Positions 6,660 through 25,126 of a stretch of DNA of 64,000 nt are shown piece by piece. The stretch is taken from assembly GCF_011067135.1 (NCBI RefSeq), contig NZ_JAAMOW010000004.1, positions 62,001 through 126,000 of the forward strand. The letters run 5' to 3'. A program made the position numbers and the translations under genes. The stretch's first letter is position 1. Every line of letters starts with the position of its first letter. A model generated the notes under the pieces. The model was not told the origin of the DNA, did no database searches, and was given only the letters and a program-made list of their open reading frames with translations. Source of the stretch: Solimonas terrae (GTDB taxonomy: Bacteria > Pseudomonadota > Gammaproteobacteria > Nevskiales > Nevskiaceae).

Positions 6660-7775
6660 TCAGGCGTTGACGGCGATTTGCAGGGACTCGTGGCTGGCTT
6701 CGCGCATGTCGTCCGGTGCGCCCTCGATGCCGCGCGCGAGATGGACCCCGTCGACCTGGCGCCGGTACTCCTGCGCGTTCGCACGCGGGTTGTAGAACTG
6801 CTTGTACCAGATGCGCTGCAGGCGGAACGGACCGTCGCCCTGCACGAACAGGCCCTGGAAGCATGGCCGCTTGTGGCGCCAGACTTCGAAGTCCTGCGCG
6901 AAGGCAGCCAGCGCCATGTCCTGATACTGGCGCGCAGCGGCATGATCGGCTTCGGTCGCCGGCTGGCCGGTCGCCGAGCGTACGAGCAGGGCGTGCCAGA
7001 CATAGGAGGAGCCGTCGTCGACCGGCGTGTGCGCGATGAAGATGTACGAATCGTACAGGCCACTCATGCGCGTGATCAGGATGCTCGGGCCGTGATAGAC
7101 CGCCTCGGTCACCAGCAGCGGGCCGCCTTCGGCGACCAGGGTGCGATGTCCGCCGCCCATGCGCTGGATCGCCAGATGGCCGCTGAATTCGTTCTCGAAA
7201 AACTTGGTTCTGGAGCCGTGCACCGGCCCGAAGTGCGCCGCGTCGGTGATGTTGTCGACGATCTCCTGTGGATGCACGTCGATCTTGCCGAGATCGTCGA
7301 AGGTCCAGTGCGTCCAGGTCGGATCGTTCCATTCGTTGAGGAACGGCGCTTCCCATTCCGGCTCGCCACCTTCGGCGTCGTGCCAGACGAACACCGCGCC
7401 CATGCTCTCGACCACCGGCCAGGAACGAATCCTGGCGGCGGGCGGAATCGGACCGCTCGAGTACGGAATCTGGTTGCACTTGCCATCCGGGCCGAAGCGC
7501 CAGGCGTGATACGGGCAGCGGATCGAATCACCCTCGACCGAACCGTCCTGCGCAACATACGAGGTGCTGTTTTTCGCCAGATGCGTGCCCATGTGCGGGC
7601 AATACGCGTCGAGCAGGATCACCTTGCCGCTGTCCTTGCCGCGATACAGCGCGAAGTCCTGACCGAAGAAGCGCACGCCCTGCGGTTTGTCGGTGACCTT
7701 CGCCGATTCGGCGACCATGAACCAGCCGCGTGGAAAGGTATGTTCACCAAGCTTGTAATCTTTCGAGCTGGCCAT
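6660..7775 (-). CDS. kshA: Rieske non-heme iron oxygenase, KshA-like (3-ketosteroid 9alpha-hydroxylase candidate)
   Basis: Oxygenase component expected to hydroxylate C9 of 3-ketosteroids, opening ring B together with KstD. It is 371 residues. Rieske ligands are Cys59-x-His61 and Cys87-x2-His90; the mononuclear iron motif is N175-x2-D178-x2-H181-x4-H186. The segment after the Rieske centre (CPYHAWRFGPDGKC...IPYSSGPIPP...VFVWHD) is KshA-like. The gap between the two Rieske half-motifs is 25 residues, longer than the roughly 16 remembered for KshA, so the substrate could differ. The start at 7775 has GAGGAG upstream. No reductase (KshB) gene is nearby. Confidence 0.82.
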   Translation of the reverse strand: MASSKDYKLGEHTFPRGWFMVAESAKVTDKPQGVRFFGQDFALYRGKDSGKVILLDAYCPHMGTHLAKNSTSYVAQDGSVEGDSIRCPYHAWRFGPDGKCNQIPYSSGPIPPAARIRSWPVVESMGAVFVWHDAEGGEPEWEAPFLNEWNDPTWTHWTFDDLGKIDVHPQEIVDNITDAAHFGPVHGSRTKFFENEFSGHLAIQRMGGGHRTLVAEGGPLLVTEAVYHGPSILITRMSGLYDSYIFIAHTPVDDGSSYVWHALLVRSATGQPATEADHAAARQYQDMALAAFAQDFEVWRHKRPCFQGLFVQGDGPFRLQRIWYKQFYNPRANAQEYRRQVDGVHLARGIEGAPDDMREASHESLQIAVNA

Positions 7776-7962: not shown

Positions 7963-9477
7963 ATGCGTGCCGTTCACTTGTTCGGAGCATCGGTGCTGGC
8001 GTGCGCGCTGGTCGGCTGCAAGGCATCGACGGTGCCCGGCGAAGCGCAATCCGGCGATGAGGCGTCCGCGCCGCTGCGCCGCGACGGTCGCTGGCTGGTC
8101 GACGCGGAAAATCGCGTCGTCATGCTGCATGGCGTGAACATGGTCTGGAAGACCGCGCCGTTCGTGCCGCCTGCGACGGCCGACGGATTTGTCGCGGCCG
8201 ACGCCGACTGGCTTGCCGACCACGGGTTCAACACCGCACGCATCGGCGTGCTCTGGGCCGGCGTGATGCCGACGCAGGCCGGTGTCATCGATCAGGATTA
8301 TCTGGTTGCCTGGGACCGTGTCATCCAGTTGCTCGCCAGGCGGCACATCTGGATGCTGTTCGACTTCCATCAGGACATGCTCGGACCGCTGTATCAGGGC
8401 GAGGGGGTGCCGGACTGGGCGGTCGAACAATTGCCCGGCAGCTTCACGACCCTGCTCGGGCCACCGGCCTTCGGTTTTCCGTTCAACTATTTCACGCCGC
8501 AGCTTTCGCAGGCCTACGACAATCTCTGGGCGGACACCGGCGAGATCCGCGACGGCTTTCGCGAGGCCTGGACGGCAGTTGCGAAGCGTTGGGCCGATCA
8601 GCCGTATTCGATGGGCTACGATCTTTTCAACGAGCCCTGGGCCGGTCTCGAATACGCCAGTTGCCTGGTGCCGCTGGTCGGATGTCCGGCGCACGACTCG
8701 CAGGAGCTGCAGCCGTTCTACGAGTACGCGCGCAACGGCATCCGCAGCGTCGATCAGCAGCACATCATCTGGTTCGAGTCCGAACCCGAGGGCAGCAGCG
8801 TCGGCACGCCGAAGGGGTTCACGGCGGTTGCCGGAGAATCGCAGCTCGGCTATTCCTTCCACGACTACTGCCCGCTCGCGGCGCTGACGCAGTCGGTCCA
8901 GCTCGGTCTGATCGACGCCCTGCCGATTCCGGCGACCTGCAACGGCTTCAACGAGGCCTCCGCCAACGAGGCGCGCGATCAGGCCGATCGAATGAATGCC
9001 GTCGAACTGCTGACCGAGTTCGGGGCCACCGACGATCTCGAACTGCTGCGCCAGACGACCGCACTTGCCGACGAGCATCTGATCGGCTGGCAGTACTGGC
9101 ATTACAAGAACTGGGCCGACCCGACCACGCAATCGCAGGGCAGTGGTGCACAGGGGCTGTTCACCGACGACGCCGACCTGTCGACAGTGAAACCCGACAA
9201 GCTGCGCATCCTCGAGCGCAGCTATCCGCAGGCGACCGCCGGCATCCCCGAGGAGCTATCGTTCGATCCCGACAGCGGCGCGTTCCACTACCGCTACACG
9301 CCGCGCGCTGCCGGCGGGCCGACCCTGATCTACATACCGCTGTCGACCCACTACCCGAACGGCTATCACGTCGAGGTCAGCGGCGCGACCGTGGTCTCCG
9401 CGCCGAATGCCGGGCAATTGCGGCTCGACAATCTCGCCGGCGCCAACGAGGTGACGATCGATCTGACGGCGAACTAG
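7963..9477 (+). CDS. GH5-family glycoside hydrolase lipoprotein (endoglycoceramidase-like)
   Basis: 504-residue lipoprotein; signal peptide with lipobox ALVGC (Cys19). The TIM-barrel domain (about 40-400) has the GH5 acid/base Glu224 in DLFNEPWAG and nucleophile Glu352 in LLTEFGA. HGVNMVWKTAPFVPP and FDFHQDM match the endoglycoceramidase-type GH5 branch, whose members cut glycosides from lipid aglycones. A C-terminal beta-sandwich (about 420-504) follows. GGGGGAG precedes the start. It is divergent from kshA. A steryl or other lipid glycoside substrate is an inference from family and location. Confidence 0.85.
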   Translation: MRAVHLFGASVLACALVGCKASTVPGEAQSGDEASAPLRRDGRWLVDAENRVVMLHGVNMVWKTAPFVPPATADGFVAADADWLADHGFNTARIGVLWAGVMPTQAGVIDQDYLVAWDRVIQLLARRHIWMLFDFHQDMLGPLYQGEGVPDWAVEQLPGSFTTLLGPPAFGFPFNYFTPQLSQAYDNLWADTGEIRDGFREAWTAVAKRWADQPYSMGYDLFNEPWAGLEYASCLVPLVGCPAHDSQELQPFYEYARNGIRSVDQQHIIWFESEPEGSSVGTPKGFTAVAGESQLGYSFHDYCPLAALTQSVQLGLIDALPIPATCNGFNEASANEARDQADRMNAVELLTEFGATDDLELLRQTTALADEHLIGWQYWHYKNWADPTTQSQGSGAQGLFTDDADLSTVKPDKLRILERSYPQATAGIPEELSFDPDSGAFHYRYTPRAAGGPTLIYIPLSTHYPNGYHVEVSGATVVSAPNAGQLRLDNLAGANEVTIDLTAN

Positions 9478-9562: not shown

Positions 9563-11218
9563 CTACGACGCTGTGCAGCCGCGTCGCAGATTGTTGCAGC
9601 GCTCCTCACGGCCGCCGCGCGCCGGATAGTCGCGTGCCGAGTGAAAGTGCCAGCTCATCTTCAGCCGTCCCTGCGGGCCATCGTCGTCGAGCAGGCGTGC
9701 GTCGGCGTCGGCGTAACCGGCTTCGCCCGGCTTTTTCAGCCAGCGATCGAACCAGGCCAGCGTGTAGTGTTCGATCAGCGGCAAGCCCCAGCCGCCGCTG
9801 CACGCGCCATTGACCAGCTGCGGGCACCACGAGCTTGCCGGAAAGGTCGGCAACAGGCTGAAGTCGAAATGCGTCGCGCCGGCGATCGTGATCGCGAACA
9901 CCGGTACGCCGGCATCGGCAAACGCCTGATAGGCGAGCAGATGATCGTCCGGATCAGGCGGTGTCAGGTATGGCGCCGCGGTCGTCGCGATGCTGGTTGC
10001 GCTACTGCCGGCCGGGCTGACGTATTCGCTCATCAGGCTCAGCGCCGGCACGCGCGGAACGGCCGCATAGCCTTCGCTGAGCGGCGCGCCCGGATCGCCG
10101 ACCGCGAGCGCGTCCCAGGCGACGATCACCTTCACCGGATTGTGCGCGTCGAGCTTGCCGAACCACGGCGCGGCGCCGTCGGCGCCGAGACCTTGCACGA
10201 TCGAGGCGCCGAATGCGCCGGCCGAATGCCCGGCGACGCCGAGGCGATCACGGTCGATGCGGTCGAAGTACGGGTTGTAGCCGGTGACCGCGGTCGGATA
10301 ACGGCCGGCGCAGGTCTGGTTCTCCGGATACGGCTGCGACGGCGTCGAATGCAGGAAGTCGATCGCATTGACCAGCCCGGTGACGAACACCGAGGTGTCG
10401 ATGTTGCCGCCCTGTCCGCCGCTCGGCGTTTGCCAGTCGGAACGGCCCTGGCCGCGCGGATCGTAGGTCATGACCATGTAGCCGTTGCGCACCAGCAGTT
10501 GCGCCGCCCACCAGTACAGCGTTTCCGGCGCCTGGATCGAGCCGTTGTCGATGACGATGGTCGGCAGCCTGGCATCGGCCGGCGCGTTCTTCGGCAGCCA
10601 GACGTGGCCGCTGAGGCGCGCGCAGCCGTCGTCGTAGAACACGATCGGCACCACCTCCGCTTCTTCGGTGTAGAAACGGCCATCGGCGCCGGCGACCTGC
10701 GGATAGCGGTAGGGATCGCCCGTGCACTGCAGTGACCAGGTCGAACACAGCGGCACCAGCGGCGCATTCAGCGGCAGCGAGATCGCGGCGGTCGGATCGG
10801 CCTGGATCGCCGCGATGCGATCCTGCAGGGTCTGTGCGAGCTCCGACGGCGGCGTGTTCAGCAGCGCCGTCAACAGCGGACTCGATGCCAGCAGCCAGCT
10901 CGGATCATCGAGATCACGCGCCGTGTAGTCGAACTGGTTCGCGGCGCTCTGCTCGATCCAGCGCGTGACGAACGCCGGATTGGCCGCTTCCTCGACCGGC
11001 GCTTCGAGAATCTTCGCGTAGTTCTGCGCCTCGCAGCTCGTCCACTGCGCGGACGGATAGGCAGCGTCGTCGCAACGCAGATCGATGCCGGCCGTGTCGC
11101 CGCCCGGATGATCGCCGCCGGCGGCGGCGAGTGACGCGGTCGGCGCCGAACGCCCGCAGGCGCCGAGCGCCAGCATCAGCAACGACACCCCGACGCCGCG
11201 ATTCAGGATCCTGCGCAT
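9563..11218 (-). CDS. Secreted lipoprotein alpha/beta hydrolase
   Basis: 551-residue lipoprotein; signal peptide MRRILNRGVGVSLLMLALGAC ends in a lipobox. The alpha/beta-hydrolase domain (about 190-530) has the oxyanion/strand region IVIDNGS, YDPRGQGRSD and the nucleophile elbow GVAGHSAGAFG. A likely acid and the His in IAGATHFDFS complete a triad. The N-terminal 150 residues are helical and unassigned. The start at 11218 is chosen for the signal peptide and for GGGGGAG upstream; an upstream extension in frame has no such features. It may release esterified lipids or steroids outside the cell; the substrate is unknown. Confidence 0.82.
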   Translation of the reverse strand: MRRILNRGVGVSLLMLALGACGRSAPTASLAAAGGDHPGGDTAGIDLRCDDAAYPSAQWTSCEAQNYAKILEAPVEEAANPAFVTRWIEQSAANQFDYTARDLDDPSWLLASSPLLTALLNTPPSELAQTLQDRIAAIQADPTAAISLPLNAPLVPLCSTWSLQCTGDPYRYPQVAGADGRFYTEEAEVVPIVFYDDGCARLSGHVWLPKNAPADARLPTIVIDNGSIQAPETLYWWAAQLLVRNGYMVMTYDPRGQGRSDWQTPSGGQGGNIDTSVFVTGLVNAIDFLHSTPSQPYPENQTCAGRYPTAVTGYNPYFDRIDRDRLGVAGHSAGAFGASIVQGLGADGAAPWFGKLDAHNPVKVIVAWDALAVGDPGAPLSEGYAAVPRVPALSLMSEYVSPAGSSATSIATTAAPYLTPPDPDDHLLAYQAFADAGVPVFAITIAGATHFDFSLLPTFPASSWCPQLVNGACSGGWGLPLIEHYTLAWFDRWLKKPGEAGYADADARLLDDDGPQGRLKMSWHFHSARDYPARGGREERCNNLRRGCTAS

Positions 11219-11443
11219 CTTGCTCCCCCCGTTGCGGTCGGTGCCGCCGGTCGTCCTTGGCGCGACCGGTTGTGCGATCCATTCTGGAACGCCAGGGCGG
11301 CGCTGTCGACGCCGTCCGGCGCGCGCATGTCGGCTAGTCGTTTCGGACGATGCCTGCCAGCGGGGCTTCTGCGACAAAGCGTCTCGTGCAGGACGGCGCT
11401 TTCGTGCCAGACGCCTGCGCCCCCGATTCGCGAGGAGATCACC

Positions 11444-12646
11444 GTGTCAGGTACCGCCCAGAAAACCGCAACGACCACGCCCATCAGTCCCGAAGTGCTG
11501 GTCCAGCGCGCGCGCGAGATGGTGCCCGTGCTCGCCAGCCGCGCGAAGCAGGCCGAGGAACTTCGCATGATCCCGGCCGAGACCGTGCAGGAAATGCAGG
11601 ACGCCGGCTTCTTCCGCGTTCTGCAACCGAAACTCTACGGTGGCTACGAGATGGACCCGCAGGTGTTCTACGACGTCTGCATGACGCTGGCCGAAGGCTG
11701 CATGTCGACCGCCTGGATCTACGGCGTGATCGGCGTGCACAACTGGCAGATCGCGCTGTTCGATCCGAAGGCCGCCGAAGACGTTTTCGGCCGGGACAGC
11801 AACACGCGCATCGCCTCGACCTACATGCCGAAAGGTCAGGTCAAGCCGGTCGAAGGCGGTTTCCGCTTTTCCGGTCGCTGGGGCTTTTCCAGCGGCTGCG
11901 ATCACTGCGACTGGATCTTCCTTGGCGGCCTGATCTTCAACGAGGGCCAGCCGCCCGAGTACCGCACCTTCCTGCTGCCGAAGTCGGACTTCGAGATCGT
12001 CGACACCTGGCACGTGATGGGGCTCAAGGGCACCGGCTCGAAAGACATCGTCGTCAAGGATGTGTTCGTGCCGGAATACCGCACGCACAAGGGCAGCGAC
12101 GGTTTCATGGGCACCAACCCCGGCCGCCACACCTTCACCGCCGATCTGTACAAGCTGCCATTCGGGCAGATCTTCGTGCGCGCGGTGTCGTCGGCCGCGA
12201 TCGGTGGTCTGCAGGGTGCGCTCAATACCTTCGTCGACTTCGCCAAGGTGCGCGTCGGCGACATGGGCAACAAGACCTCCGAGCAGCCGCCGGCACAGCT
12301 CGCGGCTGCCGAAGCGGCGTTGGCGATCGACGAGATGAAGCTGGTCCTGCATCGCAACTTCGATGTGCTGATGGGCAAGATCCGCAAGGGCGAGCCGCTC
12401 GACGACATCGCCCAGCGCGTGCACTTCCGTGCACAGGCAGCGCAGGTCGTCGAGCGCTGCGCCAGACATGCCTATGCGCTGTTCTCGGCCTGCGGGGGGC
12501 GCGGCATCTTCACCGACTTCCCGCTGCATCGTTACCTGTTCGACATCTACGCCGCGCGTGGCCACTACGCCAACAATCCGGATCAGTTCGGCCGCAACTA
12601 CGGCGCCGTGCTGCTCGGTCGCGACAACACCGACGTGTTCCTGTAA
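11444..12646 (+). CDS. hsaA: HsaA-like flavin-dependent monooxygenase (3-HSA hydroxylase, oxygenase component)
   Basis: 400 residues of the acyl-CoA dehydrogenase-like flavoprotein monooxygenase class. HsaA/TesA2 hydroxylates 3-HSA, the 9,10-seco phenol, at C4 using reduced flavin from a separate reductase (HsaB). Pattern blocks RMIPAETVQEMQDAGFFRVLQPKLYGGYE, GWGFSSGCDHCDW-like WGFSSGCDH, GLKGTGSKDIVV and a C-terminal GGRGIFTDFPLHRYLFDIYAARGHYANNP match this family rather than true dehydrogenases. The start is GTG at 11444 with GAGGAG seven bases upstream. It is followed by kstD. No HsaB gene is in the window. Confidence 0.88.
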   Translation: MSGTAQKTATTTPISPEVLVQRAREMVPVLASRAKQAEELRMIPAETVQEMQDAGFFRVLQPKLYGGYEMDPQVFYDVCMTLAEGCMSTAWIYGVIGVHNWQIALFDPKAAEDVFGRDSNTRIASTYMPKGQVKPVEGGFRFSGRWGFSSGCDHCDWIFLGGLIFNEGQPPEYRTFLLPKSDFEIVDTWHVMGLKGTGSKDIVVKDVFVPEYRTHKGSDGFMGTNPGRHTFTADLYKLPFGQIFVRAVSSAAIGGLQGALNTFVDFAKVRVGDMGNKTSEQPPAQLAAAEAALAIDEMKLVLHRNFDVLMGKIRKGEPLDDIAQRVHFRAQAAQVVERCARHAYALFSACGGRGIFTDFPLHRYLFDIYAARGHYANNPDQFGRNYGAVLLGRDNTDVFL

Positions 12647-12751
12647 GGAACCTCCGGTTCGGGCCCGGGCCGTCCGGCGGCGCAACAGTTCACCGGACTG
12701 TTCCGCGCTGCGCCGCATCGGTCCGGACTTTCACATCAAGCGGGCACTGAC

Positions 12752-14482
12752 ATGGGCGTAGCGGAATCTGGAAGTTGGGACCAGCAGTACGACGTCATCG
12801 TCGTCGGTTCCGGTGGCGGCGGCATGACCGCGGCGCTGTGTGCCAAAGGTCATGGTCTGTCGTCGGTCGTCATCGAGAAGTCCGACAAGTACGGCGGCAC
12901 CAGCGCGGTGTCCGGCGGCGGCATCTGGATACCGTGCAACGACGACATCGCGCGCACCGGTGGCCAGGATTCGTTCGAGGACGCGCTGACCTATCTCAAG
13001 GGCCTGATCGGCGACGAGGTGCCGCAGGCTCGCATCGAGGCGTATCTGCACAACGCGCCGGAGATGGTGCGATATCTGGCGAAAAACTTCGACGTGCGTT
13101 ATCGCAACGTGCCGAAGTATCCGGACTACTACCCGAACAATCCCGGCGGCAAGCAGGGGTGGCGCTCGATGGAGCCGGTCGCGTTCGACGCCTCAAGGCT
13201 CGGTGACGAGTTCCACAATCAACGCGAGTCGTTCAAGGGCACGCTGCTGATGGGCCGCATCGCGATGGATCAGGTCGAGGCGCACAAGCTGTTTTCGCGC
13301 GGGCCGGGCTGGGTGTGGCTGACGGTGAAGATGCTGCTCAAGTACTGGTTCGACATCGGCTGGCGCATGAAGACGCATCGTGATCGTCGCCAGGTCCTCG
13401 GTCAGGGCATGGTCGCGACGCTGCGCTACGCGATGATGCAGCAGCACATTCCGCTGCAACTCGACACCGGCATGGAATCGCTGATCGAGGAAGACGGCCG
13501 TGTCGTCGGCGTCGTCGTCAAGCACCAGGGCAAGACGCTGCGTTACCACGCGAGACGCGGCGTGATCCTCGCCTGCGGCGGCTTCGAGTCCAATCAGCAG
13601 ATGCGCGACCAGTATCTGGCGAAGCCGACGACGGTGGCCTGGACCGCGGCGCCGCCGATCAATCACGGTGACGGCATTCGCGCCGGTCAGGCCATCGGTG
13701 CGGCGCTCAAGCACATGGATCTGGTCTGGGGGTCGCCGACCGTGAAAAAGCCCGGCGCCGATCAGCAGATCACGCTGTTCATCGAGCGCGGCATGCCGGG
13801 CTGCGTCGCGGTCAACAGGAAGGGCAAGCGCTTCGTCAACGAAGCCGCGGCTTATCCGGACTTCCGCAACGCGATGTATGCCGACGATGCCAAGGGCAAC
13901 GGCACGGTGCCGTGCTGGCTCGTGTTCGACGCGACGTTCCGCTACAAATATCCGATGGGCATCTTCCTGCCCGGCCAGATCGAGCCGGACTCGAAGCTGC
14001 CGAAGGACTGGCTGGACAAGGTCTACTACCGCGCTGACACGATCGAGGCGCTGAGCGCCAAGATCGGGGTCGACACGGAAGGGCTGAAAGCGACCGTCGC
14101 GAATATGAACGAGTATGCGAAGGCCGGCGTCGATCCCGAATTCCACAAGGGCGAAACCGCGATCGATCGCTACTACAGCGACCCGAGCGTCAAGCCGAAC
14201 ACCTGTCTCGGGCCGATCATCAAGCCGCCGTTCTACGCGGTGAAGCTCGATGCCGGCGAGATCGGCACCAAGGGGGGTCTGGTGACCGATCCGCAGGCGC
14301 GCGTGCTGCGCGATGACGGCAGCGTCATCCCAGGGCTGTACGCAACCGGCAACACCTCGGCTGCGGTCATGGGGCCGACCTACGGCGGTGCCGGCTCGAC
14401 CTTGGGGCCGGCGATGACGTTTGCCTATGTGGCCGTGCGGGATCTGGCCGCCCAGGCGGCGGCACTCAAAGCCGCCGCCTGA
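12752..14482 (+). CDS. kstD: 3-ketosteroid delta1-dehydrogenase
   Basis: FAD enzyme of 576 residues that introduces the C1-C2 double bond into 3-ketosteroids; with 9alpha-hydroxylation this opens ring B. The N-terminal dinucleotide fold is VVGSGGGGMTAALCAKGHG, followed by GGTSAVSGGGIWIP. The C-terminal signature TYGGAGSTLGPAMTFAY contains the Tyr and Gly of the KstD active site. Length and motifs fit KstD better than the fumarate reductase branch. It lies 105 bases after hsaA on the same strand. Confidence 0.93.
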   Translation: MGVAESGSWDQQYDVIVVGSGGGGMTAALCAKGHGLSSVVIEKSDKYGGTSAVSGGGIWIPCNDDIARTGGQDSFEDALTYLKGLIGDEVPQARIEAYLHNAPEMVRYLAKNFDVRYRNVPKYPDYYPNNPGGKQGWRSMEPVAFDASRLGDEFHNQRESFKGTLLMGRIAMDQVEAHKLFSRGPGWVWLTVKMLLKYWFDIGWRMKTHRDRRQVLGQGMVATLRYAMMQQHIPLQLDTGMESLIEEDGRVVGVVVKHQGKTLRYHARRGVILACGGFESNQQMRDQYLAKPTTVAWTAAPPINHGDGIRAGQAIGAALKHMDLVWGSPTVKKPGADQQITLFIERGMPGCVAVNRKGKRFVNEAAAYPDFRNAMYADDAKGNGTVPCWLVFDATFRYKYPMGIFLPGQIEPDSKLPKDWLDKVYYRADTIEALSAKIGVDTEGLKATVANMNEYAKAGVDPEFHKGETAIDRYYSDPSVKPNTCLGPIIKPPFYAVKLDAGEIGTKGGLVTDPQARVLRDDGSVIPGLYATGNTSAAVMGPTYGGAGSTLGPAMTFAYVAVRDLAAQAAALKAAA

Positions 14483-18512: not shown

Positions 18513-19235
18513 CTAGCGCGTGCCGGGATCTTCGATGAACGCAGGCCGCGCCAATGCGTACGGCGGACTCTGCGCCAGTGCACGCAGCGCCTTGAGCATC
18601 TTGAACGGGGTGCTGATCGACATCGAGTTGATCAGCGCAGCCGGCAGTGGTCCGTTGGGATCGGAAAGCAGCGTGACTTGGGCGCGGACACCGTCGCCGT
18701 CCGGCGTCAGTGTCCAGACCTGCGTCGAGCGGACGATGCGCACCACGCCATTCCCGGGCCGCGGCGCCGCGTCGCGCAGGGCGGTATCGGTGATCGTGAC
18801 GACGAAACTGGTCGGGTCCTGCCTGATCTGCCGCTGGTTGACGATGTCGCGATCGCTGACCGGCCACGGCATGTGAAGCCGGGCGTAGAGCTGATAGCGC
18901 GTCGCACTTTCGCGATGCTGGATCGTCGCCTGCGCGACGCGCTCTTCGAGCCGGTCCTGCGCCGCCGGATCGTCGATCACGGCGACGACACTCGGCAGGC
19001 GTGCGGCGATCCGGGCGCTGCCACGAATCTGGCGAATGCTCCAGCCGTCCACGGCCCGGGTCTGGACCTGGATGCCATCACGATCCAGCTCCAGACGCCA
19101 GTCGTCTGCGGCGACTGCGCGCGAAGCCGGCATCAGAAATGACACGACGATGAGGCACGCGCAGCGACGCAGGTGTCGGCGCCTGCTGTGCGACACGTCG
19201 GGCGACGGACAAGCGCGCATGGCTTCGTTACTCAT
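18513..19235 (-). CDS. Exported START-domain lipid-binding protein
   Basis: About 240 residues. A basic n-region (SRRRHLRR), a hydrophobic stretch (CLIVVSFLM) and an ASRAVA cleavage site predict export to the periplasm. The mature part has START/SRPBCC features: WRLELDRDGIQVQTRAVDG, LPSVVAVIDD, MPWPVSDRDIVNQRQI and a C-terminal helix STPFKMLKALRALAQ. START proteins bind sterols and other lipids in a closed cavity. The start at 19235 overlaps the stop of the upstream TonB receptor by eight bases (ATGAGTAA), indicating translational coupling; a downstream ATG at 19220 is the alternative. A periplasmic sterol-carrier role is inferred. Confidence 0.82.
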   Translation of the reverse strand: MSNEAMRACPSPDVSHSRRRHLRRCACLIVVSFLMPASRAVAADDWRLELDRDGIQVQTRAVDGWSIRQIRGSARIAARLPSVVAVIDDPAAQDRLEERVAQATIQHRESATRYQLYARLHMPWPVSDRDIVNQRQIRQDPTSFVVTITDTALRDAAPRPGNGVVRIVRSTQVWTLTPDGDGVRAQVTLLSDPNGPLPAALINSMSISTPFKMLKALRALAQSPPYALARPAFIEDPGTR

Positions 19236-21816
19236 CGCCCCAGGCATAGGACAGCGTCAGCCCGACGATGCGCGGCTCGGCGTACATCGATGCCTGGAAG
19301 TACGTCAGGTTCCACTGGTTGCTGTTGGACAGCCGGTATTCCTTGTTCATGAGATTGGTGCCGTACAGGCGCGCACTGAGGCCCGATCCGAAAATCTGGC
19401 TCCAGCTCAGGCTGGCGTTGAGCAAGCCATAGGACGGCAGCCACGCCTCCGGCTCGGCATCCGGTGGTGTCGATGCGCTGTATTGGCGGTCGGTCCAGGC
19501 GTACGTGACCGAAGCCTGCACATATCCTGCCGTCGGGTTGACCGGCAGCATGCTGCGTGCCGACAGGCTGAATTGATGCCGGGGCGTCTGCTGGAACGGC
19601 GCACAGGAGAAATCGACCATGTTTCCGGCCTGGACCTTCTGTCCACTGCAGTCGAGCTGCGGCGTCGCACCGGTGTATTCCAGCTCGAACTCGCGGTACT
19701 TGGCGCGCGTGTAACCGTAGGTCGCCACGAATGCCGCGCCGCGCACCGGCTCGATGGTGAACTCGGTTTCCAGGCCGGCGACCCAGGCGCTGCCGACATT
19801 GAAGATCGATTGTCCCAGCTGCGGGACCGGGCTGACCGCGTGCGGATCGACGTAAGCGTCGATGCCGGCCTTCTGCAGGTTCGTGTAGTCGGTGTAGTAA
19901 ACCGCCGAGTTCCAGCGTACCGGCATGTCGGCGATCTCGAATTCCGACTTGTCGCCGATCTCGTAGTTCAGGACGAATTCCGGTGCGTAGGTGTAGCGCG
20001 CGGGGTTGACCGAAATCGGCGCGATGCCGCCGGTCTTGTAACCGCGGCTGACCTTGCCGTACAGCAGATTGCGGCCGAGCTTGTAGTCGAGGCCTGCGGT
20101 GTAGGTCCACTCCGCGTCGTCGATATCCGCCGCGTACGACTTGTTGACGAGCGGAATCGTGTTCAGCGCCAGCTGCCGGATCGACGCGTGGCCGCTCGTC
20201 TTGTCGCTGGTATGCCGCGCACCGAGCGTCAGCTTGAGACCCGACAGGCTCTCGAACACGTCGCCGAGATCATAGGTCGCCTGCGCAAACGGCGCGAACG
20301 ACGATTTCGTCTCCTCGTACTGCTGGGTGGTGTGCACGAACATCAACGAGGTCGCGAGGATTTCGCCTTCGGCTTCATTGTGTTCGTAGTACGCGCCAAC
20401 CACATAACTCAGCGAGCGATCGAGTGCCGAGCCGGCCAGGTGCAGTTCTTCCGTGACGCTGTGAATGTCGGCTTCCAATACGTCGGACGGATTGGTGAAT
20501 TCGTTGATGGCGGCGCGCGAGCCATCGAGATCCCAGCGATAGGAATGTCGCAGGGTCGAATAGCTCGCGATGTTGATCAGCGAGACATCATCCGACAGCG
20601 CAAACGTCGTCTTGTCGACGACGGCACCGGACTTGAGAATGTCGTTGGGGTCGGCACTCAGCTGGACTTCGCGATTACTGCGCGCGGCCTGCTCATCGAC
20701 GATGTCCTGTCCGCAGTTCGTCGACGGTCCGAAGAAGTCCAGGACCAGGCAGCCCGCGTTCAATACCTGCGCAAGGTCGATGCCCGGAATGATCTGCGTT
20801 GCCGCGCCGAGGCCGATCGCGCCCGGGATCGCCTGGTTGAGCCCTTCGCGGTTGATCTGTTTGATGACGACGGCCGTGCCGTTGTCGTGGCTGCTGGCGT
20901 AGTGCCCCATCAGGTAGTTTTCGATGCCGTCGCTCGGTCGCCACAGCAGGCTGGCGCGGCCGGCCCAGTAATGACGGTTGTCGTAATCCTTGCCGGTGAC
21001 GACATCGCGCGTGAAGCCGTCGCGCTGATAGAACTGGCCACCGACGCGCGCCAGCAGGCTGTCGGCGACGATCGGCACGTTCAGCACGCCTTCGTAGTTG
21101 TAGCCGGTCAGATTGCCCTTGCCCGCAAGGCTGAGGGCGCCGGCGCGCAGGTAGCCCGACCAGCCGTCCTTCGGCTTCTGCGGTTCCAGCAGCATCGCGC
21201 CGCCCGTGGTGTTGCGCCCGAAAAGCGTTCCCTGCGAGCCTTTGAGAATCTGCACGCTGGCCAGATCGAAGAACTTGCCGGGACCGCCCTGGTAGTTGGC
21301 GACCGGGTCGGATGGCAGCGGCACTTCGCCCAGATACATCACGACACCGGGACTGGAGCCATAGGTTGCGCCCTGCCCGCGGATCGTCGGCGTCTCGGTG
21401 TTGCGCATCTGGCTGTTCGCCCCGACGATCAGTGACGGCACACGTCCCTGCAGATCCTGCGGCGTGGTGATCTGCTCGCGCTGCAGGTCGTCGGCGCTCA
21501 TCGTCGAGATCGCGATCGGGACGTTTTGCAGGTTCTCCTTCGAGCGACGCGCGGTGACGACAATCTCGGCGATCGCTCGGCTACTCTGAGGCTCCGCGGC
21601 AGCGTTCACCGGTTCCGGCGCTGCGGGAACCGGGATGGTCGCGTACGGCGCGGCATTACTGGTGTCCTGATCGGCGCCGGCATCCGCTGCGGTCGTCTCG
21701 GGCACCGTGACCGTGGGCGCAGCAGCGTCCGTATCAGTGGCCTGCGCGAGTGCAGACGACATCCCTGCAAGGTTGGCGGCCGCCAGCAGGCTGCCACCCA
21801 TTACGAGTGCTTTCAT
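19228..21816 (-). CDS. TonB-dependent outer-membrane receptor (first)
   Basis: 862-residue receptor. The signal peptide starts MKALVMGGSLLAAANLAG with AGGAGGAGAGG upstream, fixing the start at 21816. The plug domain contains EIVVTARRSKENLQNVPIAISTMSADDLQ, GQGATYGSSPGVVMYLGEVPLPS and VQILKGSQGTLFGRNTTGGAM. The barrel ends in an aromatic-rich strand (RIVGLTLSYAWGDE). The substrate is unknown. Shared operator sequences with the P450 operon and coupling to a START-domain gene suggest a steroid or related lipid. Confidence 0.92.
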   Translation of the reverse strand: MKALVMGGSLLAAANLAGMSSALAQATDTDAAAPTVTVPETTAADAGADQDTSNAAPYATIPVPAAPEPVNAAAEPQSSRAIAEIVVTARRSKENLQNVPIAISTMSADDLQREQITTPQDLQGRVPSLIVGANSQMRNTETPTIRGQGATYGSSPGVVMYLGEVPLPSDPVANYQGGPGKFFDLASVQILKGSQGTLFGRNTTGGAMLLEPQKPKDGWSGYLRAGALSLAGKGNLTGYNYEGVLNVPIVADSLLARVGGQFYQRDGFTRDVVTGKDYDNRHYWAGRASLLWRPSDGIENYLMGHYASSHDNGTAVVIKQINREGLNQAIPGAIGLGAATQIIPGIDLAQVLNAGCLVLDFFGPSTNCGQDIVDEQAARSNREVQLSADPNDILKSGAVVDKTTFALSDDVSLINIASYSTLRHSYRWDLDGSRAAINEFTNPSDVLEADIHSVTEELHLAGSALDRSLSYVVGAYYEHNEAEGEILATSLMFVHTTQQYEETKSSFAPFAQATYDLGDVFESLSGLKLTLGARHTSDKTSGHASIRQLALNTIPLVNKSYAADIDDAEWTYTAGLDYKLGRNLLYGKVSRGYKTGGIAPISVNPARYTYAPEFVLNYEIGDKSEFEIADMPVRWNSAVYYTDYTNLQKAGIDAYVDPHAVSPVPQLGQSIFNVGSAWVAGLETEFTIEPVRGAAFVATYGYTRAKYREFELEYTGATPQLDCSGQKVQAGNMVDFSCAPFQQTPRHQFSLSARSMLPVNPTAGYVQASVTYAWTDRQYSASTPPDAEPEAWLPSYGLLNASLSWSQIFGSGLSARLYGTNLMNKEYRLSNSNQWNLTYFQASMYAEPRIVGLTLSYAWGDE

Positions 21817-21925
21817 GTTCCTCTCCTCCTGGCGACTTCGCCCTGGCGGCCCCCGCTGGCGGGTGGCCAAGTCCCGTGCCGCCCGGCTTGCCGCATCAAT
21901 GCGGTCTTCGACTCATGGCCCGGAC

Positions 21926-21977
21926 AACTGGCATCAATGCTAGTAGCGCCCATTCTCTACTGTCAATAGTGCCAGTA
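21926..21977 (-). promoter_or_regulatory. Promoter and operator of the TonB receptor/START operon
   Basis: Read on the minus strand: an interrupted palindrome TACTGGCA-N4-TGACAGTA (21977-21958) overlaps the -35 TTGACA (21966-21961). An 18-base spacer and TAGCAT (-10, 21942-21937) follow, then GCCAGTT at 21932-21926. The same elements at the same spacings occur before the P450 gene. The -10 is about 120 bases from the receptor start. Confidence 0.75.
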
Positions 21978-22044
21978 GTGGCGGCAGCTGACGCCGGAGA
22001 ATTGCGATACGTGTGTCGGATCGCCGCGCAAAGGCGCGAGCCGC

Positions 22045-22626
22045 TTACCTTGCGGGCGCCGTCTTCTTGTCGCGGGTCAGTCGGCGCAGCAGCGCGTCGA
22101 TTGCGGCTCTTGCTTCGGCATGGCCACGCACGGCGCCGATGCTGCTCTCGACGGCCAAGGTCTGCGAGACGCTCTGGATGAGGATGGCAATCGCTGCTGG
22201 CGGCAGTTCCGGCTTGACACCGCGCGCCTGGAAATAGGCGGCGATCGCTTCAGTCTGCACCTGGCGGAACTCGTCCATGTAATGGCGCATCTCCGCGCGG
22301 ATTGCCGGCTCATGGCTCGCCATGGCGATGAACGCAAACGTCGTCGCGCTCGCGTCGACCTGCACCTTCCAGAGCGCTTTCAGCGGATCGCGGCGCAGTG
22401 CCTCGCGCATACGGGCCAGACCGCTGTCGCCGTAGAAGCGGACGACGCTCAGCAAGAGCTCCTCGATCGTCCGGAAGTAGTAATGGACAATTTGTCGCTT
22501 GAGGCCGACTTTTTCGGCCAGCCGGCGGGCGCTGAGCGCACCATAGCCTTCGGTGCGGATGATCTCCACGGCCGCCTCGATCAGCAGGGCCCTGCTTTCT
22601 TCTGCGGGCCGTCTCGTCTCCGCCAT
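22045..22626 (-). CDS. TetR-family transcriptional repressor
   Basis: 193 residues. The N-terminal TetR helix-turn-helix is ALLIEAAVEIIRTEGYGALSARRLAEKVGLKRQIVHYYFRTIEELLLSVV. The C-terminal 130 residues are an all-helical ligand/dimer domain without a recognised signature. The start at 22626 (MAETRRPAEES) is preferred over the longer frame from 22683, which adds no family-like sequence. It lies between the TonB receptor and the P450 gene, both of which carry the same palindrome in their promoters, so it is the obvious candidate repressor. The inducer is unknown. Confidence 0.9.
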   Translation of the reverse strand: MAETRRPAEESRALLIEAAVEIIRTEGYGALSARRLAEKVGLKRQIVHYYFRTIEELLLSVVRFYGDSGLARMREALRRDPLKALWKVQVDASATTFAFIAMASHEPAIRAEMRHYMDEFRQVQTEAIAAYFQARGVKPELPPAAIAILIQSVSQTLAVESSIGAVRGHAEARAAIDALLRRLTRDKKTAPAR

Positions 22627-22717
22627 CCGCGCACCTCGAACGATTCCAGTCGGCAAGGATAGCAACAAGCCACGATGACTCATGCTCTGGCGTTGCCGCC
22701 GTCCATTGGGCGGCTAT

Positions 22718-22769
22718 TACTGTCACATTTGACAGTAGCGTCTCGTATTAACTAGCATCATCGCCAGTT
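22718..22769 (+). promoter_or_regulatory. Promoter and operator of the P450/NHL operon
   Basis: Perfect palindrome TACTGTCA-CATT-TGACAGTA (22718-22737) overlaps the -35 TTGACA (22729-22734). After 18 bases comes TAGCAT (22753-22758), then GCCAGTT at 22763-22769. The layout is the same as the TonB receptor promoter. The site also lies about 90 bases upstream of the tetR start, so autoregulation is possible. Confidence 0.78.
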
Positions 22770-22831
22770 AACGATGCGCCGGGCGGATGCGCCGCGCATT
22801 GCCACGAGCCCCGATCGCAAGACGTTCAACC

Positions 22832-24040
22832 ATGACACATCCGATTCCGGGCACGGCCCTGCTGGATCCGGCCGTCCTCGACGACCCGTATCCGTTCTAT
22901 CGCCGACTGCAGAGCGAAGCGCCGGTGTGGCAGGTGCCCGGAAGCCGGATCTTCATCATCACGCGGCACGCGCTGCTCGACGAAGCCAGCCGCCGCGTCG
23001 AGGATTTCTCGTCCAATCTGCGCGGCGTCCTGTATCGCGGTCGCGGCGGCGTTCCCGCGCGGCTGACGCGCCAGAAGGGTATCCCGCAGATCCTGGCGAC
23101 GGCCGACCCGCCGCTGCATGGCGTGCACCGCAAGGCCGTGTTTCCGGAGCTGGTCGCCAAGCGCATGGCGACGATGGCGCCGGATGTCGAGCAGGTCGCC
23201 GATGTGTGCATCACGCAATTGCTGCAGGCGCCGTCCGCCGACTTCATGGCGGTACTCGGCAATCCGCTGCCGATGACGGTGGTCAGCAAGCTGGTCGGTT
23301 TCCGCGGCAGCAATATCGACACGCTGCTCCAGGCAGCGTTCGATTCCACGGCGGTTGTCAGCGGCTCGCTGTCGCTGTTCCAGCTGTTGAAGACGATCTG
23401 GCGCAGCGCCACGATCCAGCGCTGGTTGGACGGGCAGCTGCGCGAAGGGTCCGATGCCGGCGACAACATTCTCGCGGCGATCAAGCGCAATATCGAAAGC
23501 GGCACGCTGCGCCAGATGGAAGGGCGGGCCATTCTGCACATTCTGCTCGCGGCCGGCGGCGAATCGACGTCCAGTCTGCTTGGCAACGCCGTGCGCATGC
23601 TCGCCGAGGATCAGGCGCTGCAACAGACGTTGCGCGAGCAGCCGGATCTGATCCCCGCCTTCCTCGAGGAAGTGCTGCGGCTGGAATCGCCGTTCCGCTT
23701 CCACCTGCGCTCGACACCGAAGGACACGGAACTCGGCGGCGTCGGAATTCCCGAGGGCGCCACGGTCCTCATGTTCTGGTCGGCCGGCAACCGCGATCCC
23801 GATGTGTTCGCCAGACCCGACGAACTCGATCTGTCGCGGCCGCGCATGCACATGACCTTCGGCCGCGGCATCCACACCTGTGTCGGCGCGCCGCTGGCGC
23901 GTCTGGAGGGCGCGATCATCCTGCGCATGCTGCTGGCGCGAACGAAGCGGATCACGCTGACGCCGGGGCGTACGCCGAAATGGGTGACCAGCCTGCAGGT
24001 GCGTCGGCACGAGCAGCTGCACATCAGCATTGACTCTTAG
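22832..24040 (+). CDS. Cytochrome P450
   Basis: 402-residue soluble bacterial P450. The I-helix oxygen-activation motif is AAGGEST (Glu where Asp is common), the K-helix ExxR is EEVLRLESP, and the heme loop FGRGIHTCVGAPLARLE carries axial Cys350. It needs ferredoxin and reductase partners, not encoded nearby. The start at 22832 gives MTHPIPGTALLDPAVLDDPYPFYRRLQ, a typical P450 N-terminus. It is in one operon with the NHL protein 15 bases downstream. A steroid or sterol hydroxylase role is inferred from the regulon, not from the sequence. Confidence 0.93.
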   Translation: MTHPIPGTALLDPAVLDDPYPFYRRLQSEAPVWQVPGSRIFIITRHALLDEASRRVEDFSSNLRGVLYRGRGGVPARLTRQKGIPQILATADPPLHGVHRKAVFPELVAKRMATMAPDVEQVADVCITQLLQAPSADFMAVLGNPLPMTVVSKLVGFRGSNIDTLLQAAFDSTAVVSGSLSLFQLLKTIWRSATIQRWLDGQLREGSDAGDNILAAIKRNIESGTLRQMEGRAILHILLAAGGESTSSLLGNAVRMLAEDQALQQTLREQPDLIPAFLEEVLRLESPFRFHLRSTPKDTELGGVGIPEGATVLMFWSAGNRDPDVFARPDELDLSRPRMHMTFGRGIHTCVGAPLARLEGAIILRMLLARTKRITLTPGRTPKWVTSLQVRRHEQLHISIDS

Positions 24041-24055
24041 CACGCCGCTCCGCTC

Positions 24056-25126
24056 ATGAGCCTCCAACGGGCGTTCGGCAAGCTCAACGAGCTGGGCAGT
24101 GACGCGTTCATCGCCGGCACGCGCTTTCTGTCGAAGCGGAACTGGGTCAGCACGTCGAGCGCCGACGCGAGGATCGTCGGTGCCGGCGCATTTCGTTACC
24201 GCGTCGATCATGACTGGTGCAAAGCCATGCCGGATGCGGTGCCGGTCAAGAACGCCCATGAAATGGCGATCGACGCGGACGGACACCTCTATCTGTTGAC
24301 CGACCATCCACGCAACAACGTCATCGTTTTCGATCGTGACGGCTGCGTGCTCGACACCTGGACCTTGGGGCTGCGTGGCGCCCATGGCCTGACGATCGCC
24401 ACGCAGGACGGGCGACAATGCCTTTGGATCTGCGATCCCTATGCTGCCCAGGTGATTCAGACCACGTTGAAAGGCGAGGTTCTGCGCCGGCTTCCGGGCC
24501 CGCACGCACTGGGCCTCTATCGTGCGCTGATGCCGTATGCGCCGACACAGACGGCGGTTGCACCGAACGGCGACATCTATGTTGCCGACGGGTATGGATC
24601 GCAGCACGTGCTGCAATTCGACGCTGCCGGAAACTTCATCCGACATTTCGGCGGCAAAGGTTCGGCGCCCGAGAACCTGGACTTCGCACACGGGATCGCC
24701 ATCGATTCCAGAAAGGGGCGCGGTCACGAAGTCCTGCTGGTCACCTCGCGCCGGCAATCGTGCATCAAACGTTTCAGCCTCGATGGCCACTACCTGGGCG
24801 AGATCAAGCTGCCTGGCGGCTATCCATGCCGACCGGTGCTGCACGGCGAGCACATGCTGGTCAGCCTGTGCTGGTCGGGTGCGCACATGAAGCCGAATTC
24901 GGGCTTCGTCGTGATCCTCGACATGCACGATCGGCTCTGCACGGCCTTGGGCGGCACCGCGACACGCGATGCGCAAGGTGAACTGGTCGCACTGCAGTCG
25001 TCGTACGACTGCTTTCACCATGTACACGACGTCTGCGCCGATCTATCGGGCAATCTCTACGTCGCGCAATGGAATGCCGATGGCGTCTATCCGTGGCGGC
25101 TCGCAGCGATCGCCGCGCCAGCGTGA
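24056..25126 (+). CDS. NHL-repeat beta-propeller protein
   Basis: 356 residues with repeated NHL-like blades: NAHEMAIDADGHLYLLTDHPRNNVIVFDRDGCVL, GAHGLTIATQDGRQCLWICDPYAAQVIQTT, TQTAVAPNGDIYVADGYGSQHVLQFDAAGNFIRHFGG and VHDVCADLSGNLYVAQWNADGVYPWRL. The fold resembles the lyase domain of peptidylglycine-amidating enzymes, but no function can be assigned. No signal peptide is evident, so it is probably cytoplasmic. It follows the P450 by 15 bases and should share its promoter. Confidence 0.78.
   Translation: MSLQRAFGKLNELGSDAFIAGTRFLSKRNWVSTSSADARIVGAGAFRYRVDHDWCKAMPDAVPVKNAHEMAIDADGHLYLLTDHPRNNVIVFDRDGCVLDTWTLGLRGAHGLTIATQDGRQCLWICDPYAAQVIQTTLKGEVLRRLPGPHALGLYRALMPYAPTQTAVAPNGDIYVADGYGSQHVLQFDAAGNFIRHFGGKGSAPENLDFAHGIAIDSRKGRGHEVLLVTSRRQSCIKRFSLDGHYLGEIKLPGGYPCRPVLHGEHMLVSLCWSGAHMKPNSGFVVILDMHDRLCTALGGTATRDAQGELVALQSSYDCFHHVHDVCADLSGNLYVAQWNADGVYPWRLAAIAAPA

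Follow-up and report, generated by a model that had tools for sequence, protein, structure and literature searches.

Two promoters flank a tetR-type gene in a 64,000-nucleotide stretch of the Solimonas terrae genome (hereafter, the window), one reading toward a cytochrome P450 gene and the other toward a TonB-dependent receptor gene, and both carry the same tandem pair of palindromes, O1 over the −35 box and O2 over the −10 box. It is likely that the local TetR-type repressor sits on both promoters and blocks them, probably as two dimers each, and that an inducer releases uptake and oxidation together. By sequence, the paired sites and their spacing are evident at both promoters, the arrangement is conserved at the P450 promoter of a second species, Sinimarinibacterium flocculans, and among the genomes searched it is restricted to the neighborhood of this tetR. 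Judged from the sequence, the switch is real, local and conserved and belongs to a known kind, with an architecture cleaner than an earlier, sequence-only reading of the same DNA had seen.

Table 1. Features discussed in the text. Positions refer to the window unless another locus is named.
Feature	Position	Strand	Description
KshA-type oxygenase	6660-7775		KshA_C
KstD-like dehydrogenase	12752-14482		below the curated cut-offs of named NCBIfam models
START-domain protein	18513..19247	(-)	PF01852; start overlaps the end of the receptor gene
TonB-dependent receptor	19228..21816	(-)	PF07715
O2, receptor promoter	21926..21945	(-)	TACTAGCA-N4-TGCCAGTT; overlaps −10
O1, receptor promoter	21958..21977	(-)	TACTGGCA-CTAT-TGACAGTA; one mismatched pair; overlaps −35; read directly and by pattern search
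tetR, presumed repressor	22048..22626	(-)	start MAETRR, conserved in S. flocculans; stop codon excluded
O1, P450 promoter	22718..22737	(+)	TACTGTCA-CATT-TGACAGTA; perfect palindrome; overlaps −35; read directly and by pattern search
−35 box of the P450-NHL operon (predicted)	22729..22734	(+)	TTGACA; promoter scan
−10 box of the P450 promoter (predicted)	22753..22758	(+)	TAGCAT; 18 bp after TTGACA; promoter scan
O2, P450 promoter	22750..22769	(+)	AACTAGCA-N4-CGCCAGTT; weaker palindrome; overlaps −10
Cytochrome P450	22787..24040	(+)	PF00067
NHL/beta-propeller protein	24056..25126	(+)	15 bp after the P450 gene
Palindrome and MarR locus at the P450 copy	L073 8447-8468 and 7971-8429		own genome

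The tetR-type gene is placed between the receptor gene and the P450 gene, with one O1-12-O2 unit on each side of it, and its position between the two promoters, which the sequence-only reading had given, can be read directly. The NHL gene is presumed to share an operon with the P450 gene, and the START gene to share one with the receptor. A scan of start codons placed a strong ribosome site, AGGAGGAGAG, before the receptor ATG at 21816; for the P450, translation may truly begin at the ATG at 22832. Among solved structures, CYP144 is the closest to this P450 by sequence.

The palindrome that had been described at both promoters, perfect in the P450 copy and with one mismatch in the receptor copy, was confirmed by direct reading and by search. 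Using a pattern derived from the finding itself and allowing up to three mismatches, we obtained 6 strand matches at 3 places in the window, where 0.27 were expected; none of 100 shuffles gave as many as 6. Similarly, the described layout, in which TTGACA overlaps the palindrome and is followed after 18 bases by TAGCAT and after 4 more by GCCAGTT, holds at both promoters (22729-22769 on the forward strand and 21966-21926 on the reverse), and TTGACA-N18-TAGCAT has exactly 2 occurrences in the window. A promoter scan of positions 21700-22900 listed both promoters, with 0.4 expected from shuffles; the same scan found no promoter for tetR.

A wider steroid regulon had also been proposed, and the genome-wide search does not support it. 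In the own genome (G000) there was no composite unit beyond the two window promoters and thus none before steroid genes, and single O1-like sites with up to two mismatches (27 forward-strand sites, counting the four in the window) were fewer than the 53 of a reversed-pattern control. The same was seen in S. flocculans (18 sites, known sites included, against 50), and a genome search with up to three mismatches returned 14 matches against 32 for its control. For the composite unit, we therefore rejected a genome-wide regulon. The sole other own-genome site that departs from the 18-bp operator core by only one mismatch (G000:C18:183071-183088; L039 9572-9589) is found some 150 bp ahead of a 531-aa ORF, lacks both TTGACA and O2, and may be a weak extra target of the repressor; the sites at C19:224666 and C16:54287 have no composite unit. 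In actinobacteria, KstR is a TetR-type repressor of steroid catabolism, and KstR and KstR2 govern large regulons through another motif, whereas the window offers two promoters only. By eye, no KstR-type AACnnGTT core was seen at the window operators, and with no composite site elsewhere in the genome neither this motif nor a large steroid regulon was encountered. KstR2 itself is described, in the part of the source available, as a Tet-like repressor of steroid genes (PMC4810484).

Could the repressor nonetheless be the sterol sensor of a steroid-degradation cluster? The window is rich in steroid-type genes, holding acyl-CoA dehydrogenases and thiolases besides the KshA-type and KstD-like genes, and EdcR, a TetR repressor encoded beside a P450 gene in a cluster with a TonB receptor gene, responds to estrone according to the accessible part of its report (PMC8700777). 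A family match with steroid enzymes is, however, no proof of growth on steroids. Against a sterol sensor, KshA_C is found in 11 of 11 genomes of the genus but the tetR ortholog in 2 of 11; in S. flocculans, both KshA_C matches are on contig C2 and the tetR-P450 pair on C1; and the nearest solved P450 is CYP144. The sterol inducer favored by the sequence-only reading is therefore unsupported by co-occurrence, and we consider a sterol sensor possible but rather doubtful. Between the KshA-type and KstD-type genes, the window also encodes a GH5 protein with a GH5 C-terminal domain (7963-9477), which might release sterols from glycosides.

The architecture became clearer downstream of O1. GCCAGTT had been taken for an extra half-site at each promoter; the half-site is real but not a lone one, as together with ACTAGCA, which overlaps the TAGCAT box, it makes up a whole second palindrome, the 20-bp inverted repeat O2, at both window promoters. 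The center of O2 is 32 bp from that of O1, giving a tandem unit O1-12 bp-O2 of 52 bp per promoter. Compared with ACTGKCA-N4-TGMCAGT, O2 has 2 mismatches at the window P450 promoter, 1 at the window receptor promoter and 1 at the P450 promoter of S. flocculans. When these three promoters were scored at 174 offsets with a consensus derived from O1, the summed mismatch averaged 30.2 (sd 4.2) but fell to 4 at +32, with 20 as the next lowest value, the three units not being independent since the window and S. flocculans P450 promoters are orthologous. It could be argued that O1 is the sole operator and that O2 consists of the −10 region plus a conserved start-site element resembling a half-site by chance. 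The left half of O2 indeed overlaps TAGCAT, includes most of the −10 box and is one base off consensus in each of the three units, so part of the conservation of O2 may stem from that of the promoter. The right half (TGCCAGT or CGCCAGT), on the other hand, lies downstream of the −10 box and has 0-1 mismatches at a constant offset in all three promoters; together with the gap between 4 and the next best 20, this makes a single operator unlikely.

When O1 is used to align the two window promoters, they agree at 17 of 20 positions of O1 and 15 of 20 of O2, but at only 4 of the 12 spacer positions, 27 of 100 upstream and 27 of 99 downstream. Outside the boxes their similarity is no greater than chance. 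A recent duplication of one promoter from the other is ruled out by these flanks and this spacer; the boxes and their spacing were either kept, or arose, separately from the surrounding DNA.

Orthologs of tetR were sought in 61 genomes (own, genus, family and order) and one was found outside the own genome, in S. flocculans (G006) of the same genus, with 66-68% identity; the next best proteins had 38-39%. A further scan of the genome contigs gave this one ortholog and three short N-terminal matches, and among the matches listed for 369 class genomes (up to 8 candidates scored per genome), there was no ortholog besides that of the own genome at E 1e-20. In S. flocculans, the orthologous tetR is divergent from an orthologous P450 (about 70% identical; locus L035), and between the two lie O1 (L035 8974-8993) and O2 (L035 8942-8961), with the 32-bp offset kept. 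With up to three mismatches allowed, 2 of 85 order genomes hold the composite pattern, at 3 places that are all beside this tetR, and the reversed-pattern control gives 0; of 369 class genomes, 1 holds it, namely that of the window (the order and class sets share the own genome, G039, G041 and G044). Both the tetR ortholog and the composite site were looked for in 61 genomes, and the same two hold them, within about 100 bp of each other. This pairing makes it very improbable that the sites belong to another regulator encoded elsewhere with tetR as a bystander, although the tie between protein and DNA is by sequence, the own-genome copy of the P450 gene adjoins a MarR gene and an AraC relative occurs in 5 of 9 receptor loci, that relative having no tblastn match in the window.

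The receptor side of the locus is less widely shared. The S. flocculans receptor ortholog, the end of which is about 4 kb from tetR, has no operator, so it is only in the window genome that the sequence suggests control of the receptor by the tetR product; the composite unit at a receptor promoter was met in one genome. In S. flocculans, an alpha/beta hydrolase gene comes after the P450 gene, and in the 19.9 kb surrounding the locus (L035) tblastn (E 1e-5) found no homolog of the NHL or START proteins. We also scanned 12 fetched loci for the operator with up to one mismatch, namely nine with receptor relatives (of 16 receptor matches besides the window's own), L074 (P450 only) and two loci of sister tetR genes, and this returned the S. 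flocculans unit only. Matches with two mismatches (L074 9208 and L037 18885) and the many with three look like chance.

In 8 of the 9 fetched loci (L035, at 11170-13449, L073, L075-L079 and L081, but not L080), relatives of the receptor are accompanied by a conserved group of membrane proteins that includes one COX3-like by Pfam, and the AraC relative is present in L035, L073, L075, L077 and L078. This receptor set beside membrane proteins is uncharacterised. The window has no match to the membrane-protein set or to the AraC relative (the latter by tblastn with the L073 protein as query), and with these usual neighbors absent, it is probable that the receptor joined the tetR regulon within the lineage of the window. 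We tentatively suggest, as something that may well prove otherwise, that the 52-bp unit is a portable promoter-operator cassette with two cooperating dimers three turns apart and the inner site kept weak because it serves as the −10 box, and that the receptor promoter gained it separately, after the receptor had left its usual membrane-protein neighborhood (with its COX-III-like member). A second P450 gene in the own genome, with a product 64% identical to that of the window (L073; C15, about 282.4 kb), is divergent from a MarR gene, and the palindrome immediately in front of its start, AAATGACAGCATGCTGTCAATT, is a different one.

The presumed repressor itself has the marks of the TetR family. 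Its TetR_N helix-turn-helix matches PF00440 with 39.9 bits (cut-off 24, E 3.7e-10), and PF13977, as a mark of the predicted C-terminal ligand and dimer domain, scores 27.6 bits against a cut-off of 27. The monomer, predicted from an alignment with at most six useful rows, has an all-helical TetR fold (pLDDT 82.9), with 4ich as best PDB match (TM 0.77, 18% identity); searches of the PDB and by fold gave generic TetR relatives only, with no clue to the ligand. The window and S. flocculans proteins share every residue from 30 to 54, a stretch containing the two short helices (33-40 and 44-50) of the predicted DNA-binding part. All 11 named NCBIfam TetR equivalog families listed (BetI, RutR, FadR and others) are below cut-off, the best being BetI with 29.2 against 201.3 bits. 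The helix-turn-helix domain, the predicted fold and, at the level of sequence, a palindromic operator beside its own gene thus place the protein in the TetR family.

Sister TetR proteins with 38-39% identity are encoded in the own genome (C13:220115) and in G029. Each sister gene has downstream of it a promoter region in which 26 bases, CGATGCTAATGTAGTGTTCAGCATTT (reverse strand; L036 10047-10072 and L037 9779-9804), are identical between the two; by eye this stretch is itself a palindrome over a plausible −10 box, and in the own genome it precedes a TauD-like dioxygenase gene. It is a candidate operator of a second TetR clade and is absent from the window at up to two mismatches. Consequently, different repressors of the clade seem to go with different operators, as expected if the operator follows the repressor.

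EdcR of Caenibius tardaugens is a close published precedent. In the parts of the two reports available, this TetR-type protein is encoded divergently from an operon that begins with the P450 gene edcA, the cluster includes the TonB-dependent receptor gene edcT, palindromes overlap the −10 boxes at the promoters, and the proposed operator, TnnCnnTACnAnTnGTAnnGnnA, is less conserved at the receptor and regulator promoters (PMC8700777, PMC7793797). The window resembles it in the repressor gene divergent from a P450 gene, the TonB receptor gene in the cluster and the palindromes at the promoters; a divergent P450 and a receptor with a matching operator are both found in the window, but S. flocculans has this for the P450 and not for the receptor. 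One operator per promoter is named for EdcR in those parts, whereas the window has two tandem palindromes of another sequence at each, and the EdcR motif TACnAnTnGTA, as given in the available text (PMC8700777), is by eye absent from O1 and O2.

Tandem operators have their own precedent in Tn10 tet, where, as far as the accessible text goes, a divergent control region holds two operators for the TetR dimer (tetO1 and tetO2), which overlap promoters and for which cooperativity is not indicated (PMC3037858). There the pair serves two divergent genes; in the window, a single promoter has its −35 and −10 boxes covered by a pair, and another promoter carries the whole unit again. PheR of Sphingobium, as the part of the source available describes it, links TonB receptors with phenanthrene catabolism, the effect on receptors being seen in transcriptomes (PMC13273656). 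It is thus like the window protein in being one repressor affecting TonB receptors and catabolic genes, but belongs to another protein family (IclR) and has another operator. A search of an open-access library, by titles and the starts of abstracts, on TetR, TonB receptors, P450, steroids and tandem operators gave no paper describing this locus, and one on Sinimarinibacterium and steroid gave nothing related by title.

We propose the following switch. The TetR-type protein encoded at 22048-22626 would act as the local repressor, with one dimer on the strong O1 over the −35 box and a second on the weaker O2 over the −10 box. As the sites are 32 bp apart, or about three helical turns, the dimers would sit on the same face of the DNA, perhaps cooperatively, and would shut RNA polymerase out of both the P450-NHL and the receptor-START promoters; tetR may also regulate itself. 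A small hydrophobic inducer, probably the compound imported by the receptor or its first oxidation product, would bind the repressor and free both operons at once, for uptake (receptor and START protein) and for oxidation (P450 and NHL protein). Since the same palindrome pair stands at both promoters, the cell probably turns on the uptake of one compound along with its oxidation. Of the earlier proposal that one repressor controls both, the shared operator linked to tetR has thus stood, with its linkage to the P450 kept in S. flocculans, and the sterol inducer and the steroid regulon have not found support.

The finding is a useful annotation for a P450 of unknown substrate rather than a surprise. 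It describes a regulon of two promoters whose operators follow a strict grammar that can be tested, and the paired sites provide a way to ask whether a second, promoter-overlapping site sharpens the response. For this gammaproteobacterial genus with steroid-type genes, it adds a candidate inducible switch for a hydrophobic compound.
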